A stretch of 37,641 nt of DNA from a virus, in IMG/VR virus record IMGVR_UViG_3300046004_001076, positions 1 to 37,641 of that record; one strand, given 5' to 3'. The notes beneath the pieces were generated by a model. That model had not been told where the DNA came from, ran no database searches, and saw only the letters and a program-made list of their open reading frames with translations. A program made the position numbers and the translations under genes. Shown here piece after piece: positions 41 to 34,577 of this stretch; within the stretch, counting starts at the first letter, position 1; each line of letters starts with the position of its first letter.

Positions 41-181
41 TTAGTTTAGTTGTGGGTCAAACGGGAACACCCCGTATCGGTTATAATGGCAAATGGCGTT
101 AAACTCTGCCCAATACGAACCGTAACAATTAAACAATGCTTGGCGGCATTCTCCATCGGTTGCATCGGCTAGAGTTGTCAT
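41..181 (-). CDS. small hypothetical protein, 46 aa
   Basis: Unrecognised protein of 46 residues, starting MTTLADATDGECR and ending FPFDPQLN. It is rich in aromatic residues (W, Y, F) and has three cysteines. Its ATG shares the ATGA overlap with the stop of the upstream gene (178-181), the same coupling used at many junctions in this genome, which is the main support for it. It lies in the region after the terminase and chaperone-like genes, so a small structural or accessory role is possible, but nothing in the sequence shows one. Confidence 0.6.
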   Translation of the reverse strand: MTTLADATDGECRQALFNCYGSYWAEFNAICHYNRYGVFPFDPQLN

Positions 182-399
182 ATCCTATCGGTTGCTATTA
201 ATGCGTTCTCAAATGCTCTATCTCTAAATCTGCCGTTATTTCGTGCGCCACGTTCTTTAAGTTTAGCTAGTCGCAATTGCGCTGCGGCTTCGGCTCTATC
301 CTCATACGGGTATGTCTGCCTACCGTTTACAACATCAAGTTCGGTTATGCCGTACTCGTATGTCCTGCTTTCGGGGTAATAACGCTCAACTATTTTCAT
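178..399 (-). CDS. hypothetical protein, 73 aa
   Basis: Unrecognised basic, charged protein starting MKIVERYYPES, with an alanine/arginine/leucine-rich stretch in its second half (AEAAAQLRLAKLKERGARNN) that should be helical. I start it at the ATG at 399; a TTG two codons upstream at 405 is possible but lies inside the TATATTTG promoter box at 403-410. The next gene downstream starts in an ATGA overlap with this one. The promoter is so close that the transcript would be nearly leaderless. Confidence 0.7.
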   Translation of the reverse strand: MKIVERYYPESRTYEYGITELDVVNGRQTYPYEDRAEAAAQLRLAKLKERGARNNGRFRDRAFENALIATDRI

Positions 400-402
400 G
401 CT

Positions 403-433
403 CAAATATAATTAATTATTAGCTACTTAGCAA
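403..433 (-). promoter_or_regulatory. Bacteroidota-type promoter before the 73-aa gene
   Basis: On the minus strand TTG (431-433), a 20-base spacer, then TATATTTG (403-410), matching the Bacteroidota TTTG / TAnnTTTG consensus. The box ends three bases before the ATG at 399. It overlaps the last codons of the -1 frame extension of the upstream gene. Confidence 0.5.
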
Positions 434-701
434 CTTCACTCATGTAAATCTGCATCTTATATTCCACTTTACCGCTCATTCGTTTATGCATTATGTACGC
501 AAACACTTCATGCACGGGTAATGCTTTAACTATATTATCCTTGCTTATGTCGGGGCTTGCCTCCCTTAGAGTGGCATACCACCCAAACGGGGCTAGTTTG
601 TCTTCACCAGCCCGTTGCCCTGCCGCTTTATGTTTTGCCGTGCGATAGTCACCGCTAGTTGGTTTGATAAATGTGTTGTATATCCACGCCCTAACCTCGC
701 A
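423..701 (-). CDS. -1 frame extension of the chaperone-like gene (T-domain-like), 92 aa
   Basis: An open frame with no usable start runs from the T9 tract to a TAG at 423-425. Its upstream limit is a stop at 717-719, so it opens only at the T9. Read after a -1 shift it continues CEVRAWIYNTF and ends MQIYMSEVAK. The part 'FGWYATLREAS...DISKDNIVKALPVHEVFAYIM' looks like normal coding sequence and resembles the C-terminal halves of Bacteroidota phage chaperone-like proteins (from memory, not searched). Together with the 165 codons before the shift it would give a protein of about 257 residues, arranged like gpG-T of lambda. A homopolymer sequencing error (T10 read as T9) would give the same fused frame. 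Confidence 0.7.
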   Translation of the reverse strand, partial: CEVRAWIYNTFIKPTSGDYRTAKHKAAGQRAGEDKLAPFGWYATLREASPDISKDNIVKALPVHEVFAYIMHKRMSGKVEYKMQIYMSEVAK

Positions 702-1195
702 AAAAAAAAGAACGCACTAGTGGCATCTCTCGCATCCATATCTAAAAACTCGTTAGCCTTTTCGGTAACGTGTCCCTCACCTTCGTACAAGTAAGCTAAC
801 ACCATCGGCATAGCTTTGTGTGTGTGGGTGGTGTTATCCATTATGGTTAGGGCTTCGATGCAGTTGCCAAATTCGATATTGCCGTAAGGTATTCTTACTT
901 TGCCCATCTCCATTAGCAACGGCTCACAAGCGGTGTAGGTTTTGCCGTTTACCTCAATAAATGGCACTTCGTAAGGTGTGGGTACGTATAACCCTTGTAC
1001 GGCTATTTCCAGCATTCCTACGACCTCTGTAACGGGTTTGGCTAGTAGTTCAGCTTCAGTCATATCCGTGCAAGCTAGTAGCACTTTATACGCTTGCTTT
1101 GGATAGCTAACGAGCATATCCGTTCCCGTCATATCGTCTGTTATGTCAACGCCTATTAAGGCATCCATTACTTGTATGTACTGTCGTAAAGTCAT
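593..1195 (-). CDS. tail assembly chaperone-like protein (frame-0 form, 200 aa)
   Basis: Starts MTLRQYIQVMDALIG at an ATG that shares one base with the terminase stop. Residues about 76-150 hold a motif set (FIEVNGKTYTACEPLLM, IEFGNCIEALTIM, MVLAYLY) and a phenylalanine run AFFFF near residue 164. This matches my memory of a protein family in Bacteroidota prophages with a 'YRP'/'ALFFF' layout that sits near tail genes, probably tail assembly chaperones. Chaperones of this kind guide tape measure and tube assembly. The FFFF codons are the T9 run, where a -1 shift leads into the 92-codon extension; unshifted reading ends at 593 with a basic tail. If the genome is permuted, this gene lies upstream of the tail genes at the right edge. 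Assignment is inferred; it could be another conserved phage protein. Confidence 0.55.
   Translation of the reverse strand: MTLRQYIQVMDALIGVDITDDMTGTDMLVSYPKQAYKVLLACTDMTEAELLAKPVTEVVGMLEIAVQGLYVPTPYEVPFIEVNGKTYTACEPLLMEMGKVRIPYGNIEFGNCIEALTIMDNTTHTHKAMPMVLAYLYEGEGHVTEKANEFLDMDARDATSAFFFFARLGRGYTTHLSNQLAVTIARQNIKRQGNGLVKTN
701..712 (-). promoter_or_regulatory. T9 slippery tract, candidate -1 frameshift site
   Basis: The coding strand reads GCG TTC TTT TTT TTT GCG. Both tRNA sites can re-pair after a one-base backward slip. Upstream the -1 frame is closed (stop at 717-719) and downstream it is open to 423. I did not identify a clear downstream pseudoknot by eye. Confidence 0.55.
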
Positions 1196-2421
1196 TAGTA
1201 GTAAATTTGGTTTTTAGGCTGTCCAAGTAACCCCGTAACAGCGTACCTTTTTGCGTCAATTCCGTGATTAAAGGCATCTATTGGCTTGTTCAGCAAGTTA
1301 CCGTTCTTATCCGTTGCCCACGTGTAATTCTTTAACTCCTTCATTAAATCGGGGCTTTGGCAAATTATCAATGGGTATTGTTTGATTAGCTGTATTCCTA
1401 AATTAATGCTATCCGCACCTTTTACCGTTGGCTTGATATTAAAACCTTGACGGTAAATTTCCTCAATGCTTTTCGGTTCAGCACTATCAGCAAATATAAC
1501 ATCGTTTCGTGTAACGCCCAAACCTCGCATCTTATCGCAAATATCTGAATTGGTTAACCCGTAGCCATAAATTAGCTGCTTAACGTAAATTGCGCCCTCT
1601 GAATAGCGTATGTGTACTAAAGCGGTAGGGTCATTGGTAAAACCAAAGTCAAGCCCGTAGGCTTCGCTTGTGAAGTGTTGCGGAAATTCGCCTGTATCGT
1701 ATTTGTCGAATATCTTACCTTGCTTACCGCTACCCCATTCGCCCAACACAACCACCCTGTAATATTCGGGGTCAATTTTCAATAGGCTCTCCATCTTACG
1801 TATGTAGTCGGGGTGCAAGTTCCTAATATTGCAATGGTACGTTGTATGAATAAACTCGCACTCTGAATAGTTAGTATCGTGAAACTTGGTTTTTAACCAG
1901 CAATCCTCATTCTCGGTATTGTAGCTTAAAACTATCTTTAGCTTTTTGCCTTTGGTGGTTCTTAAGGATAGGTCAAACTTGTTGAAGTCGCTGTAACCTA
2001 CCTCATCGGCTTCCTCAACCCATGCGTAGTTTACTTCTGTAATTGATTTCATTTTAGCCGTTGCGCTGCCGCTGCTTGCTCTAAAGCCTTTAGCGATTAT
2101 CTTGTTGCCGTTTAGCTTGCATTCTATTTCCATTGTGTTTTCTCGGATATGAAATAGGTGCTCCATACCTCCGTCATTGATAATATCCTTTATTTGCTGA
2201 AACTGCGAACCTCGAATGTCGCTAAAGTTGGCACGGGCAATAACACAACGGAAATAGTCTTGCTCAACCATGTTAATCACAATGTCTTGTGCTGATGTGT
2301 AGCTTTTAGCTGAACCCCTGCCACCTACCAAACATACATAACGCTTGTTGGTTAGCCTTAGTTGGTTGTATGTGCTGTTAAACTCTAGTTGCATAAAAAA
2401 ACGGTCTCCACGCTGTGGCAA
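1195..2421 (-). CDS. terL: terminase large subunit
   Basis: DNA-packaging motor ATPase and nuclease, acting at the portal of the prohead. Walker A is GGRGSAKS at residues 33-40 and Walker B with the catalytic glutamate is AWVEEADE at 133-140. The C-terminal RNase H-like nuclease has its acidic residues in GLDFG (D258), IFADSAEPKS (D312) and FNHGIDAKRYA (H386, D389). The length of 408 residues is typical of the PBSX/Terminase_3-like group. I use the ATG at 2421; a second ATG at residue 10 (2394) is also possible. The small subunit ends 28 bases upstream and the chaperone-like gene begins on the last base of this stop. Confidence 0.95.
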   Translation of the reverse strand: MPQRGDRFFMQLEFNSTYNQLRLTNKRYVCLVGGRGSAKSYTSAQDIVINMVEQDYFRCVIARANFSDIRGSQFQQIKDIINDGGMEHLFHIRENTMEIECKLNGNKIIAKGFRASSGSATAKMKSITEVNYAWVEEADEVGYSDFNKFDLSLRTTKGKKLKIVLSYNTENEDCWLKTKFHDTNYSECEFIHTTYHCNIRNLHPDYIRKMESLLKIDPEYYRVVVLGEWGSGKQGKIFDKYDTGEFPQHFTSEAYGLDFGFTNDPTALVHIRYSEGAIYVKQLIYGYGLTNSDICDKMRGLGVTRNDVIFADSAEPKSIEEIYRQGFNIKPTVKGADSINLGIQLIKQYPLIICQSPDLMKELKNYTWATDKNGNLLNKPIDAFNHGIDAKRYAVTGLLGQPKNQIYY

Positions 2422-2449: not shown

Positions 2450-2830
2450 CTACTTTTCGGGCTTACTCATATCCACGTGCTTAATCACTATCGTATTGTC
2501 TATCTTATCACCCCCACTAGTAACGTCATTGTGCTGCATACTCATTGCCTTGCGTTCATCTTGGCTGCATATTAGCTTGTATAGGCTTATCTGCAACGCT
2601 GGTGCTTCGCTTTTGTACCACTTGCTACGCATACTCGTTTTGATTTCGACCTTGTTACGTTCCAATAGTTCGTCAATCTCCTTTCTCTCGTTCGTTTCGT
2701 TCGCAAAGTGCTCGTAAAAGGCTGTTTTACCACACGGCAAAAACGCCACAACATCCTCAATAAAGAACAGCTTGTGTTTCTCTATTGCTGCTTTTGCTTT
2801 TGTTAAAAGGTCTTTAGTGTTGTATGCCAT
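2450..2830 (-). CDS. terS: terminase small subunit
   Basis: Protein of 126 residues directly upstream of the large terminase. It has a helix-turn-helix-like stretch at residues 22-42 (FIEDVVAFLPCGKTAFYEHF) followed by charged helices (ETNERKEIDELLERNK), the layout of small terminase subunits that bind the packaging site and stimulate the large subunit. Position and fold pattern make the call; the sequence family is one often seen in Bacteroidota phages. Its start overlaps the end of the cytosine methyltransferase by 17 bases, so methylation and packaging genes are expressed together. Confidence 0.85.
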   Translation of the reverse strand: MAYNTKDLLTKAKAAIEKHKLFFIEDVVAFLPCGKTAFYEHFANETNERKEIDELLERNKVEIKTSMRSKWYKSEAPALQISLYKLICSQDERKAMSMQHNDVTSGGDKIDNTIVIKHVDMSKPEK

Positions 2831-3878
2831 TGTTATCTATTTTGTCTAACCATTGCAATTTGATTTGATTAGCTATTTGCGCTGTCATTACTGGGGGCAC
2901 ACTCATTCCAATTAAATATTTTGGCTCTATGCTTTTGAAATTGTAATCAAGTGGGTAAGTACCAGTATGCTTAAAATCATTATCTGAAAACCATTGCTTA
3001 TCATAAGCTCTAAAGTTTTTACCCGCACTTGTAATTGTTTGTGGCGTTTCTGTATCTTTTACAATACTATCAGTAAACCCAGAATTTTTGCCAGTTCGTT
3101 TTATTTCAATTTCAGCAAGTGTTTTTTCTCCTTGGTATAATTTCAATAATTGGTATTGCCTATCTGTTAACTTTGTTTCATTTCCTTTTGCACTTCTGTA
3201 TTCTCCAAAACTTATTGCAACTTCATTAAAGTCTAATTTTAACTTTGGTAGGTTGTATTCCTTTTTATGCCCAATAAAAAACACCCTTTCACGTTTTTGC
3301 GGCACTCCCATTGATGCAGCATTTAAGCAAAACACTTGCACGTTATAACCTGCATCGGTCATTTTTTTAACTATGTTTTTTGAATAAACTTTTGCATTGC
3401 CTTGTATTATGCCTTTAACGTTTTCAAGTAAAAATACTTTAGGTTGCAGCTTAATGATGGTATCGCAAAACACAAAAACCAAATCATCTAGAGATTGCAT
3501 TTTTTGCCCTTCTCTGAATTGTTTTTCTTTCCCCCATGCTTTTTCTCTACTGCCTGCCATTGAAAATGTTGAACACGGTGGGCTACCGTCTAAAATATCC
3601 AGTTCATACAATTCTTTAGGTAAATCATTCCTTTGATTAAATTGCCTTATGTCTTCATTAAATAAATACTTTGGATTGTGGTTAGCTTTATACACATCTG
3701 CTATCGGTGGGTCTATTTCAACACCGCCAAAATGATTAAATCCTGCGAGCTTGTAGCCCATTGTTGAACCACCACCGCAAATAAATGTTCCAAAAACATT
3801 GTAATTATTTTTTGCAATACCGCTACTTGGATAGCCGTCTGACAAATTCCACTTATAAGGAAATAAATGCTTATTCAT
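2814..3878 (-). CDS. DNA cytosine-C5 methyltransferase
   Basis: Transfers methyl from S-adenosylmethionine to C5 of cytosine in a DNA target; it has no partner restriction enzyme here, so it probably protects phage DNA from host restriction. Motif I is FICGGGSTMGYKLAGF (residues 32-47), a variant of the usual FxGxGG. The catalytic motif IV is GSPPCSTFS with Cys102, motif VI is ENV (152-154), motif VIII is QKRER (194-198), and motif X is near the C-terminus (GMSVPPVMTAQIANQI). All key residues are present at 354 residues. It overlaps the ParB-like gene by 8 bases and the small terminase by 17 bases. The target-recognition part is about residues 210-310; its specificity cannot be read from the sequence. 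Confidence 0.93.
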   Translation of the reverse strand: MNKHLFPYKWNLSDGYPSSGIAKNNYNVFGTFICGGGSTMGYKLAGFNHFGGVEIDPPIADVYKANHNPKYLFNEDIRQFNQRNDLPKELYELDILDGSPPCSTFSMAGSREKAWGKEKQFREGQKMQSLDDLVFVFCDTIIKLQPKVFLLENVKGIIQGNAKVYSKNIVKKMTDAGYNVQVFCLNAASMGVPQKRERVFFIGHKKEYNLPKLKLDFNEVAISFGEYRSAKGNETKLTDRQYQLLKLYQGEKTLAEIEIKRTGKNSGFTDSIVKDTETPQTITSAGKNFRAYDKQWFSDNDFKHTGTYPLDYNFKSIEPKYLIGMSVPPVMTAQIANQIKLQWLDKIDNNGIQH

Positions 3879-4440
3879 TGTTTAATCCTAAAAGGGTAAA
3901 AATAGCTTGTTCAGGTGTTGATGCAATTTTACTTAGCTTATCTTTTACTAGATGGTAATCGCTTTCTGTAAACTCTAGCTTAATAATCATTTTATCGTCA
4001 AAGTCATCAGTATCAATTTCTTTATTTTTTTCAGAGTAATCTACATCACTACCAAAATTAGGCACTTCCAAACCCCACTCGCTCAACTCCTCACTATTCC
4101 ATTCGTTTGCCAGTAATTCCCAATCCCACTCACCAAAACCTACGTTATCCTTCACAATAAACTGCCGTTGCTCATCTTCTGTCAAGTCTTCTGCTTTGCG
4201 TACCCATGTTACAGGTATTTCGGTGTATTTAAGGTGTTGCAGGGCTTTTAAGCGCATATTACCGCCGAGTAGTATATTATCCTCGTTTACCACCATTGGG
4301 CGCAATTCAAGCATCTTTGGGAAGTCTTGAATACTTTTAACTAGCTTGTGAAATTTATCGTCCTTTATTACCCTCGGGTTGTTCGGGTTCGGTTTAATCT
4401 CACTTAGCTTTATTGTTTCACTTGGGTTACTTGCTGGCAT
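3871..4440 (-). CDS. ParB/sulfiredoxin-fold N-terminal domain protein
   Basis: ParB-like protein of 189 residues. The N-terminal half has the ParB/Srx fold signature: IKLSEIKPNPNNPR (9-22), a conserved middle LRPMVVNEDNILLGGNMRLKAL (46-67, with GGNMRLKAL in place of the GERR box) and IPVTWV. The C-terminal half is acidic with no helix-turn-helix that I can see. Such domains are common in phages next to or fused with DNA methyltransferases, and some members cut DNA or use CTP. Here it is coupled to the C5 methyltransferase by an 8-base overlap, so a shared DNA-modification role is likely. Its activity is not known. Confidence 0.8.
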   Translation of the reverse strand: MPASNPSETIKLSEIKPNPNNPRVIKDDKFHKLVKSIQDFPKMLELRPMVVNEDNILLGGNMRLKALQHLKYTEIPVTWVRKAEDLTEDEQRQFIVKDNVGFGEWDWELLANEWNSEELSEWGLEVPNFGSDVDYSEKNKEIDTDDFDDKMIIKLEFTESDYHLVKDKLSKIASTPEQAIFTLLGLNNE

Positions 4441-4701: not shown

Positions 4702-5035
4702 TGGTAAGCTTGTTGAATTGCTTGATTGCGTTCTTTAGATTGAGGGCTTGGCAGTAAGCAAACCCATCGACTCTTTTGGCTTGATATGTAAAACCTGCCT
4801 CTGTTTTTAGTTCTTGAAATCCGTTTAGCAAAACAGTTTTGCCAATATGATAGACAGGCTCAAGCAATGCTTTGGTAATTTCGCCCGTATTTAGGTTTTT
4901 CTGCCAAACTGTAAGCCCAGCAATCCTACGCTCAGAATGCAATAGTTTTTGTTCTTTTTCAATTCCAATATTGTAATGAACAGCATCCTTATCTTTTAAG
5001 GCTTCGCTATCAATTATTATTTGAAATGGTTTCAT
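4694..5035 (-). CDS. hypothetical protein, 113 aa
   Basis: Unrecognised. Starts MKPFQIIIDSEALKDKDAV; alternating hydrophobic and polar residues suggest mostly beta structure with a basic, helical end (ALNLKNAIKQFNKLTNG). No cysteine pair, signal or membrane segment. It starts in an ATGA overlap with the 62-residue gene upstream and overlaps the methyltransferase remnant by 8 bases, so it belongs to the small-gene operon before the DNA-modification genes. Confidence 0.7.
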   Translation of the reverse strand: MKPFQIIIDSEALKDKDAVHYNIGIEKEQKLLHSERRIAGLTVWQKNLNTGEITKALLEPVYHIGKTVLLNGFQELKTEAGFTYQAKRVDGFAYCQALNLKNAIKQFNKLTNG

Positions 5036-5220
5036 TTCTGCTTGTTTTCAAGTTCGAGAAATTTATCGACAGATTTTTGCAATCCAGCAAGTTTAATGTC
5101 TAATTCGACCTTTTGCTTAGGGGTCAACTTCATTCTAAGTCGACCCAAAATACCCATCGTTTTAATGCGGCCATCATCTTTGAAGTCTGGTGGAACATTA
5201 TCGTGTCTAATGTCTATCAT
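5032..5220 (-). CDS. hypothetical protein, 62 aa
   Basis: Unrecognised. I choose the ATG at 5220 (MIDIRHDNVPPDFKDDG), one base past the stop of the upstream gene; a longer frame from 5265 would overlap that gene by 44 bases and adds a low-complexity basic leader. The second half is a charged helix (LTPKQKVELDIKLAGLQKSVDKFLELE) that could form a coiled coil. It joins the next gene by an ATGA overlap. Confidence 0.65.
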   Translation of the reverse strand: MIDIRHDNVPPDFKDDGRIKTMGILGRLRMKLTPKQKVELDIKLAGLQKSVDKFLELENKQK

Positions 5221-31451: not shown

Positions 31452-31594
31452 GCTATTTTTGGTTTTAGAAAACACCTACATTGATTGCATTGCGGAAACA
31501 AATTTACAATTGGCACAACGTATTCTTTGTGCTCGCACTTATCGCATAGTTTTTCACGGATAGCCTTAGTCTGATTGTCTGTTTTAACCTCCAA
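31415..31594 (-). CDS. small Cys-rich zinc-ribbon protein with CPVGKW end
   Basis: A 59-codon frame with no ATG, starting at TTG 31594 (in the last codons of the tape measure gene) and ending at 31415. It has CDKC and CNQCRC pairs and ends SSCPVGKW. The CxxC-CxxC plus C-P-x-G-K-W ending is a pattern I recall from small proteins next to tape measure genes in Bacteroidota phages. It fills the gap between two annotated genes. The start codon is uncertain. Confidence 0.6.
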   Translation of the reverse strand: MEVKTDNQTKAIREKLCDKCEHKEYVVPIVNLFPQCNQCRCFLKPKIAWKFSSCPVGKW

Positions 31595-34577
31595 TGGTAG
31601 TTTGGTTTTGAATTTGAATAATACTGCTTTGCTGGCTAGTGGTATCCACTACGTTGTTCAATACTTGTATAGGTGGTATATCAAACGTAAAGCCGCCACC
31701 TAAGTTTTGCTCACTAGCTGCCAAACTCGCACCTGCCGCACTAAACACGGGGGCAACAATACCACCCGTCTCAAACTTTTTGCCGCCTGTCATGTAATTC
31801 ATTTGGCTTATTGCACGTACAAAGTCGGGTCGTTTCTGTATGCCTTTGTTAACGATTATTTCGCCTCCTTCGGCTTCCATTAACCTACCCCCTGCGGAAA
31901 ACTTAACCCCTCCGTTGGCGTGTGAATTGCCTGTAATAAACCCACCGCCCATTGGTATATTGCCACCTTCTGCGAATTTACCTATTATGCCACCGTATTG
32001 AAATTTTGGTGCGCTTTTTAGTGCCGCGGTTGCTTGTGCGACTGCACCTAATATCGTAGTTATGGTAGTCGCAATAAACAAAGGGGTTGCTACAAACGCA
32101 GCAGGACCCGTTGCGCTTGCCGCTGTGGTTGCGCCCGCAATACCAGCACTTATTGATTTAGCCGTATCAACACCTATTTGAAATAAAGTTGCCGCCTTTT
32201 GTAATGCTGCATTTTCTTTGAATAGTCCAGCTAACGAACCAAATAAACTACTGTAACTTTGCGCAATTTGTAGGTTGAATTGCGTTTGTGTTTGAACTTG
32301 CGTTTGTAATAGCTGATTCCTTTGCTGCGCTTGTTCAGCTAAGAATAGCGTTTTTTCTTCTTCTGTGCCTTTAAAACTTGCAAGCTCTTCGGCTTGTGTT
32401 GATAGTAATAACTCAAAAGCAAGGGCATCACGTTCTTTTTGTGATTCTGCATTTAATATTTCAGTTTCAATACGTGCTTGCTCGTTATCAAATTTTTGCT
32501 GCGCTAGCAATGCATCGTTCTGTTTAATTAATGCGTTACGGGCGTTTAATTGCTCTTGAAGCAATACGTTTTTTTCTGTTTCTGTACCAACAAATGCGTC
32601 TAATTCTTGCTTTTGTTTTTCTTTTAATCCTTGAAGTTCAAGTTGTCCTAAAATTACTTTATCGGTAATAAATAGTTTTTCACCTTCTAATATAGACTGA
32701 TTAAGTTCAAATTGTGCTGCTGTTTCATTGTCTAATATTTCTTTATTTAACTGCTCAATAGCTATCTTATATTGTTCATTATATGCATCTCTAGTATCTT
32801 GTTTTAATTTTTCAGAAACCTTTAGTAATTCAACACTTGCTAAATCGGCTTTCTTTTGATTCTCTAATCGTTGGCGTTCACGGTCAAACTCATTATCAAT
32901 AAGTGCAAGGTCATTTTCTTGTTGCAGTTTTAGTAATTGCCCTTGCGCTGCCGTTTCGTTTTGTATACGATTATCGTTGTATTTCTTTTGGTCTGCTAGT
33001 TTCTTATCGTTGGCATCTTTTTGGCTTGCTATCCTGTTATTCTCAATAACCGTTATTTCGGTATTTAGGTTATCAAGTTCAATACCTATCTCTCTTAGCC
33101 TTTTGGTTTCTTCGGCTGTATTGGCATTGATTAGCCCTTTTGCTTTTATTATTGCTTCGGTAACCTTCAACTCCTTTTCAAATGATAATTGGATTTGCTT
33201 ACGCTTTTCAATTTCTAAATCCGTAACATCTTTGCCTAAAGACTTTTGTATTGCTATTTCTGCTTCAATAGCCCGTATTTTATCCTCGTTGGCTTGCTCG
33301 AATGCTAGTTTATCCGCATTGTATCTTTTTAAGGCATCTTCACTTAGTTTCTTAGCTTCGGCATCGGCTTTAAAAGATGTTATACCAATGGCATCGCTAA
33401 AGTTCTTAACGCCTTGAATTACGCCATTGATAGTTGAGCCAATCGCATCGAACGCATCTCCGATTATTTTTATTTTGTCTTTTAGCGCAAACAAGGCTAT
33501 GCCAACCGCTGCCACTACCGCTGCGAATAAAAATATCGGATTGGATAATAGTACTTTGCCGAATGCAGTAAACGAACTAGCCGCACCCTTTAACCCGTCT
33601 TTTAAGCTGCTAAAAGTTAAGCCTTTTAAGGTTGTGCCTAATTGCGCTATACGTTCATTAGCTTGCTTAAAATCAAGGTTTCCGAGTGATTGCCCAACGC
33701 CCCCTAACTGCTCTCTAAATTTCTCAAACTCCGTGCCTTTCTCTTGTTTGATAGCTTCGTTGGCATCTTCTATTTTATCCTGTAATTTACCAGCTTCGGC
33801 GGTTAATCTTTTAAAGTCTTCTGTACCCTCACCAGCCACGGCTGCGGCTTCTTTTAATGCCCTTAGTTTGCTTTTTAGGCTTTCGGCTGATGCGCCTGCT
33901 TCGTTTTCAGTTTGGGTTAACGCCTTTAACTGATTATCTACTTCCTTTTCGGATTTGGCTAATATCTGATATTCTTCTGCTAGTGCTTGGATTGCTGCTT
34001 CGTTGGCAACGAATACAGCGTTGTTTTCCTGTCCGCTTTTACGGGCTGCCGCTTGCGCTTGTAATAATTGTTTTAGGCTTGTTTCGAGTTCGCCTAATGC
34101 CTCTTTGTAGTTACCTACGTTCCTGCTTGTGTTACCTACTGCGCTTTCAAGTTTCTTTAGTTCATCGCTAATCGCTTTGGCTTGGTTTTGTACGTCTTTG
34201 CCTTTTGCGCTTTCACGTTCCGCCCGGGTTAAATTGTTATATTCTTTGGTAAGGTTCGATAATTGCGCCCGTAAGGAAACAATGCTACCCTCGTTTTCGT
34301 TTAGTACTTTAGCTTCGTTTTGCGTTTCACGAATTAAGTCGCCTTTGGCTTTAGTTAGGTTGCGTTGTTGAACAATGTTCCTGCCAAGTTCATCGGTTAA
34401 ATCTCTGTATTTAGCAGTACCTTGGTCGTTCAACTCTGTTAGGTTGACTAAGTCCGCCCTATTTCTTTTGATAGTTTGGTTCAGAGTCGTTAACTCGTTA
34501 TCAACCTTACCAATAGCAGCGGCTTGGGCTTCAAGTCCGTCAAAGTTAATCCGATATACTAATGTTTTTTCAGCCAT
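31584..34577 (-). CDS. tail tape measure protein
   Basis: 997 residues; sets tail length and is ejected with DNA. Residues 1-290 are coiled coil (QTIKRNRADLVNLTELNDQG; LSNLTKEYNNLTRAERESAK). A membrane segment lies near 343-366 (LLSNPIFLFAAVVAAVGIAL), a long E/K/Q-rich coiled coil follows (about 420-790), and a second hydrophobic stretch is near 805-850 (AFVATPLFIATTITTILGAV). The end is glycine-rich (GGIIGKFAEGGNIPMGGGF). Length, coils and two hydrophobic patches are typical. The tail tube gene lies downstream, not upstream. The gene overlaps the baseplate-like gene by 8 bases. Confidence 0.9.
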   Translation of the reverse strand: MAEKTLVYRINFDGLEAQAAAIGKVDNELTTLNQTIKRNRADLVNLTELNDQGTAKYRDLTDELGRNIVQQRNLTKAKGDLIRETQNEAKVLNENEGSIVSLRAQLSNLTKEYNNLTRAERESAKGKDVQNQAKAISDELKKLESAVGNTSRNVGNYKEALGELETSLKQLLQAQAAARKSGQENNAVFVANEAAIQALAEEYQILAKSEKEVDNQLKALTQTENEAGASAESLKSKLRALKEAAAVAGEGTEDFKRLTAEAGKLQDKIEDANEAIKQEKGTEFEKFREQLGGVGQSLGNLDFKQANERIAQLGTTLKGLTFSSLKDGLKGAASSFTAFGKVLLSNPIFLFAAVVAAVGIALFALKDKIKIIGDAFDAIGSTINGVIQGVKNFSDAIGITSFKADAEAKKLSEDALKRYNADKLAFEQANEDKIRAIEAEIAIQKSLGKDVTDLEIEKRKQIQLSFEKELKVTEAIIKAKGLINANTAEETKRLREIGIELDNLNTEITVIENNRIASQKDANDKKLADQKKYNDNRIQNETAAQGQLLKLQQENDLALIDNEFDRERQRLENQKKADLASVELLKVSEKLKQDTRDAYNEQYKIAIEQLNKEILDNETAAQFELNQSILEGEKLFITDKVILGQLELQGLKEKQKQELDAFVGTETEKNVLLQEQLNARNALIKQNDALLAQQKFDNEQARIETEILNAESQKERDALAFELLLSTQAEELASFKGTEEEKTLFLAEQAQQRNQLLQTQVQTQTQFNLQIAQSYSSLFGSLAGLFKENAALQKAATLFQIGVDTAKSISAGIAGATTAASATGPAAFVATPLFIATTITTILGAVAQATAALKSAPKFQYGGIIGKFAEGGNIPMGGGFITGNSHANGGVKFSAGGRLMEAEGGEIIVNKGIQKRPDFVRAISQMNYMTGGKKFETGGIVAPVFSAAGASLAASEQNLGGGFTFDIPPIQVLNNVVDTTSQQSSIIQIQNQTTIGG

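Follow-up and report, generated by a model that had tools for sequence, protein, structure and literature searches.

The window, that is, the whole stretch of 37,641 nucleotides of viral DNA analyzed here, carries on its minus strand a 200-codon open reading frame (ORF) at 1195-593, which directly follows the terminase gene and contains a run of nine T's (T9) at 709-701. The codon context of this run in frame 0 is AGT GCG TTC TTT TTT TTT GCG AGG, with TTC TTT TTT TTT forming codons 162-165 of the ORF. Past the joint, the -1 frame reads TGC GAG GTT AGG and continues for 92 codons to a stop at 425-423, and a slip at the T9 would thus yield a 257-residue fusion with its last 92 residues derived from the -1 frame. 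Only five codons (TGC GTT CTT TTT TTT), none of them a start codon, lie between the -1 stop at 719-717 and the joint. The original prediction had placed the T9 inside the 1195-593 frame, the -1 stop at 717-719 and 92 open codons down to 423, and these coordinates and counts are correct to the base. The run at 709-701 is the sole A or T run of nine or more in the whole window, and by our own arithmetic about 0.1 coding-strand T9 runs are expected from base composition. The features of the locus are as follows (clade 1 comprises the window and its close relatives, clade 2 the more distant ones).

593 to 1195, minus strand: frame-0 ORF of 200 amino acids (unshifted product), the last 35 codons past the T-run; conserved in eight contigs
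701 to 709, minus strand: T9 run, putative slip site; exactly T9 in 9/9 clade-1 sequences and T9 to T12 in 140 clade-2 sequences
701 to 707, minus strand: in-phase heptamer T TTT TTT, from coordinates and codon table
423 to 701, minus strand: -1 extension of 92 codons plus stop, C-terminal domain of the predicted 257-residue fusion; dN far below dS, joint aligned to clade 2 by profile comparison
593 to 700, minus strand: overlap readable in two frames, with selection on the -1 frame (changes between the window and relative L002)
690 to 694, minus strand: TTAGG motif, 6 nt past the heptamer, giving a TAG stop in the +1 frame; spacing common to clade 1 and most of clade 2
717 to 719, minus strand: -1 frame stop that closes the extension upstream, with no own start before the joint
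1195 to 2421, minus strand: terminase large subunit gene, directly upstream with a 1-base overlap (PF04466, 2.2e-34; PF17288, 1e-17; PHROG terminase, 2.9e-46)
178 to 399, minus strand: gene for a 73-aa protein that follows the frameshift gene in clade-1 relatives (clade-1 conservation)
31584 to 34577, minus strand: tape measure gene (PHROG tape measure, 1.5e-05)

The gene adjoins the terminase gene rather than the tape measure gene, as had been predicted; in the three relatives that contain both in one stretch (G003, G006, and G008), the tape measure gene is located 11.6-12.1 kb downstream on the same strand. In both clades, the frameshift gene stands first in a same-strand series that comprises neck-like genes, gp10-like genes, and two large tail genes and leads towards the tape measure gene; the neck-like and gp10-like names derive from position, size, and weak profile matches. 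The 853-aa protein of the window and its clade-2 counterpart are homologs (E 1e-08); the clade-1 series is interrupted by a block that includes glycosyltransferase-like genes. The window is not a closed circle: joining its ends would place the frameshift gene 4.3 kb from the tape measure gene, compared with 11.7 kb in the near-identical G006, and about 7.4 kb are therefore missing between the window ends. The window end removes the start of the gene at 37640-37128. Two relatives (L017 at 2467-3750 and L008 at 2716-4001) possess a visibly different terminase beside the same frameshift gene, as if it had been swapped just upstream. L017 has an additional 108-aa gene (4798-5124) that separates the frameshift gene from the conserved 73-aa gene; it is absent in L003 and L008.

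Searches conducted with each half of the gene separately retrieved the identical seven contigs; the eighth, L017, came from a profile search. These eight contigs carry eight different metagenome numbers, and the identity of their N-terminal protein part to that of the window ranges from 57 to 100%. The window and all eight relatives have exactly T9 at the identical codon, with the second half in the -1 frame (9/9); this conservation, like the substitution pattern of the overlap, goes beyond chance. L008 shows two more one-base differences outside the slip site, which are probably assembly errors. Two scans of bacterial genome contigs did not detect a clade-1 relative.

A more distant clade was reached through a weak Foldseek match of a poor AlphaFold model (E 0.098; I6R9M9 of Nonlabens phage P12024S), which pointed to gp38 of that phage. 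The gp38 gene adjoins the terminase gene directly and carries a T9, and the -1 frame past this run proceeds through the separately annotated gp39. A gp38-based search identified 63 viral contigs, and a profile truncated upstream of the slip site yielded 80 more, the collection containing at least 571 relatives. Readable slip sites were tabulated for 62 contigs of the gp38 search and 78 of the truncated-profile search, giving 140 clade-2 sites; some of the patterns behind the first 62 touch the slip site, whereas those behind the 78 lay upstream. L112, L118, and L160 were left out, being too short at one end or outside the range of the script, although L112 also shows a T9. In 140 of 140 readable clade-2 sequences, the run comprised between 9 and 12 T's, the heptamer T TTT TTT was in phase, and the downstream half was in the -1 frame. 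The T-run at the joint, the conservation of which in homologs had been proposed as a check, was thus found at 149/149 readable sites (9 from clade 1 and 140 from clade 2), with T9 in 115, T10 in 31, T11 in 2, and T12 in 1. The fusions of the two clades could be aligned end to end by profile with their joints matched (hhalign, 97.5%, E 3e-11), while the C-terminal halves alone gave a weak match (E 0.015). The only cultured relatives are the Nonlabens phages P12024S/L, with a flavobacterium as host, and this kinship supports the prediction of a polyU-type shift in a Bacteroidota phage.

Pairwise comparisons within clade 1 showed a frame-0 pattern of evolution for the N-terminal part and a -1 pattern for the part past the overlap, the latter with a dN of 0.015-0.20 and a dS between 0.8 and saturation. 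Within the overlap, dN was 0.00-0.19 in the -1 frame versus 0.07-0.37 in frame 0. The seven overlap changes between the window and L002 were all synonymous in the -1 frame (7/7) and all non-synonymous in frame 0 (7/7); the comparison with L004 gave 12 synonymous and 0 non-synonymous changes in the -1 frame, and that with L003 gave 10 and 1. Selection thus acts on frame 0 up to the T-run and on the -1 frame from exactly there on.

The unshifted tail past the run differs between the clades. In clade 1 it showed no constraint of its own (openness P 0.33; frame-0 changes mostly non-synonymous), and we therefore claim no function for this tail in the window. In clade 2 the unshifted frame is open for 55-84 codons in most members, compared with an expected median of about 6, and it was open longer than expected in 19 of the 21 genes tested (P 0.000-0.044). 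The unshifted reading in this clade (L068-L111 and L113-L192) continues for 50-84 codons past the T-run in a similar form, for example ...GINQFTHSLKEILDDLKISLN. The similarity of these tails suggests that clade 2 keeps both frames. Synonymous-codon conservation in clade 2, expressed as the excess over random usage, was 0.05 upstream, 0.50 at the run, 0.71 and then 0.39 in the next two ten-codon blocks, 0.59 just before the frame-0 stop, and about 0.24 past this stop. A TTTAGG sequence (TTAGG in clade 1) located 6 nt past the heptamer, or 9 in some sequences, is nearly invariant in both clades, synonymous sites included; the only causes identified for this invariance are dual reading and the +1-frame stop.

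We have high confidence that these features reflect programmed recoding at the T-run. The prediction of a real -1 event at this site is supported by the two halves being kept in the -1 relation in 149 sequences, and the predicted two-product layout is, as judged from the sequences, maintained by selection across a large set of related phages. T-runs are among the most mutable sequences, and a single insertion or deletion would suffice to merge the two frames into one ORF. No such merged frame was seen among the 149 readable sequences, in which run length varies but always with compensating codons, and we therefore argue that both products are needed. Relatives with an unbroken frame and no T-run, the outcome that the original prediction had named as speaking against it, numbered 0 of 149. 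That prediction had also offered a homopolymer read error (T10 in place of T9) as the alternative. Homopolymers are indeed error-prone, but a read or assembly error does not account for a -1 relation kept in 149/149 sequences, including an isolated phage genome, although the run varies from 9 to 12; a decayed gene, in turn, is at odds with purifying selection in both parts, and we consider error or decay extremely improbable. Scarcely more probable is that the -1 half forms a gene of its own, initiated independently. Nonlabens gp39 is annotated in this way, as an ORF of its own, and PHROGs hold the two halves as separate families, but an ATG upstream of the joint in the -1 frame is absent in 149/149, and 126/149 lack a start codon of any kind upstream or within the first 30 -1 codons, which makes an independent start unlikely; moreover, the T-run is the very point from which the -1 frame is under selection. 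The P12024S gp38 and gp39 are thus probably one gene joined by a -1 frameshift at T9 (NC_018271, 23136-23830; L049 in our set).

The run, its phase, the reading frames, their conservation, and the selection on the -1 frame are read directly from the sequences; the slip itself, its mechanism, the ratio of its products, and the chaperone role are inferences. Most products would stop at 593, giving the 200-residue protein, and a minority would slip back one base on the T9 (U9 in the transcript) and give the 257-residue protein. The slip would most simply be a tandem -1 ribosomal slippage on the in-phase U UUU UUU, with both tRNA-Phe re-pairing with UUU. RNA polymerase slippage is a close rival: some transcripts would have ten U's (-1, giving the fusion) and some eight (+1, stopped at once by the UAG in TTAGG). 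The in-phase T TTT TTT was present in 149/149, though any T9 contains one, and together with ribosomal slippage being the usual route in tail chaperones it counts for the ribosome. No conserved downstream RNA structure was predicted by RNAalifold at 80 anchored sites, and a Shine-Dalgarno-like stimulator was present in 2/149 only, so that a ribosomal shift would be unaided. A stimulator is frequent but not necessary in -1 ribosomal frameshifting; its absence lowers the ribosomal claim without excluding such a slip. In Escherichia coli, U_UUU_UUU is less slippery than A_AAA_AAG (PMC5009743).

For the polymerase speaks that the run is never shorter than nine in 149 sequences; it is from nine onwards that many bacterial genomes show selection against A/T runs prone to slippage (PMC1088944). 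In addition, the codon before the heptamer was TTT, which keeps the run at nine or longer, in 5/5 cases in which the following codon lacks an initial T, versus 12/54 otherwise (Fisher p 0.001, uncorrected for relatedness and representing about 3 lineages plus clade 1). Runs of T10-T12 are tolerated, and a +1-frame stop occurs within 4 codons in 149/149. However, the encoded hydrophobic residues impose most of the run length (NTT TTT TTT TAY gives nine automatically), and the +1 stop follows easily from conserved F/V-R codons. Since any run of nine has an in-phase heptamer and the amino acids dictate most of the length, the run-length and preceding-TTT evidence is suggestive only. On balance, we lean slightly towards a ribosomal slip, polymerase slippage being somewhat less probable but a serious contender. 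We regard as unlikely the far-reaching scenario that, throughout a very large set of Bacteroidota phages, polymerase slippage at a T-run that must be at least nine long determines the proportion of two tail assembly proteins, with one clade keeping both frames past the run to give products with different functional ends.

As to function, a role like that of the gpG/gpGT tail assembly chaperones appears reasonably likely. By analogy with lambda gpG/gpGT, the short form would coat the tape measure protein and the rarer long form would recruit tail tube subunits. The layout suggests a -1 frameshift that fuses two overlapping ORFs into the predicted products, and the gene lies on the same strand upstream of the tape measure gene within the tail module; its opening of the module that leads towards the tape measure gene in both clades supports this role. 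It does not lie between the major tail protein and tape measure genes. Comparisons by hhalign with lambda G, T, and GT, HK97 gp13, and TP901-1 ORF43/44 remained at the level of controls with one exception, an 11-column match to TP901-1 ORF43 (E 0.0015) that we judged too short to use. Searches of Pfam, PHROGs, and solved structures returned no function. AlphaFold models built on shallow clade-1 alignments were poor (pLDDT 53 and 47); searches of the Protein Data Bank for their fold gave nothing useful, and their Foldseek matches to proteins named tail assembly chaperone were insignificant (E 0.49 and 2.3). Of the earlier identification with gpG/gpGT, the two-frame -1 layout thus stands, similarity to known chaperones was not found and the standard position is not occupied, leaving the identity plausible. 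Because of the lack of similarity to characterized chaperones and of the standard position, we refer to the gene as chaperone-like and not as a family member. It is possible, but less probable, that this is a real frameshift gene encoding a neck or other tail-module protein with a C-terminus swapped by the slip. Its place directly past the terminase and before the neck and gp10-like genes, the missing similarity to known chaperones, and the clade-2 unshifted tail, which also looks constrained, unlike that of lambda, would fit such a protein. Against it, the common -1 pair in tailed phages is the chaperone pair, as is well established (PMC5009743), and beside the tape measure gene of the window we noticed neither another frameshift pair nor any other candidate. 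Two-way decoding of the 1195-423 gene, probably with a chaperone-like role, is our preferred reading, to which we assign a probability of about 0.7.

That phage tail genes use programmed -1 frameshifts is well established. The novel elements in this case are the gene family, whose halves PHROGs hold as two families of unknown function, a slip site made up solely of T's and at least nine long, the position directly past the terminase, and a tail that in clade 2 is apparently dual-coded; a search of the open literature found no description of a frameshift in these phages. The T-run slip would be a real and widespread device, probably for phage tail building. For a family annotated as two separate ORFs of unknown function, the analysis provides one gene model and a likely role, covering more than 500 uncultured phage contigs. 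The C-terminal third of the protein escapes ordinary gene calling, as happened in the Nonlabens record. The family also provides many natural sequences for asking whether a phage sets the ratio of two proteins by ribosome or RNA polymerase, and Nonlabens P12024S is an isolated phage in which the mechanism is testable.

Among known systems, the chaperones lambda gpG/gpGT and HK97 gp13/14 share with this gene two overlapping frames, a -1 shift late in the first ORF, a short and a long product, and location in a siphovirus-type tail region. They differ in that sequence similarity is undetectable, the slip site is of the GGGAAAG type instead of an all-T run, the gene described here adjoins the terminase, and its unshifted ORF continues for 16-84 codons past the slip. 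Genes with programmed transcriptional slippage, such as Thermus dnaX and insertion sequence elements with A9/T9, have a homopolymer of at least nine at the frame change, as does the window, whereas the in-phase U UUU UUU of the window also fits ribosomal slippage and the case made here is one from sequence. A third counterpart is gp38 + gp39 of Nonlabens phages P12024S/P12024L (phrog_32199 and phrog_38404), annotated as two unrelated hypothetical proteins and divergent in sequence from the window, with a T9 that sits on codons with a one-base difference; they nevertheless belong to a homologous family with the same T9 joint, the same -1 relation, and the same place directly past the terminase.
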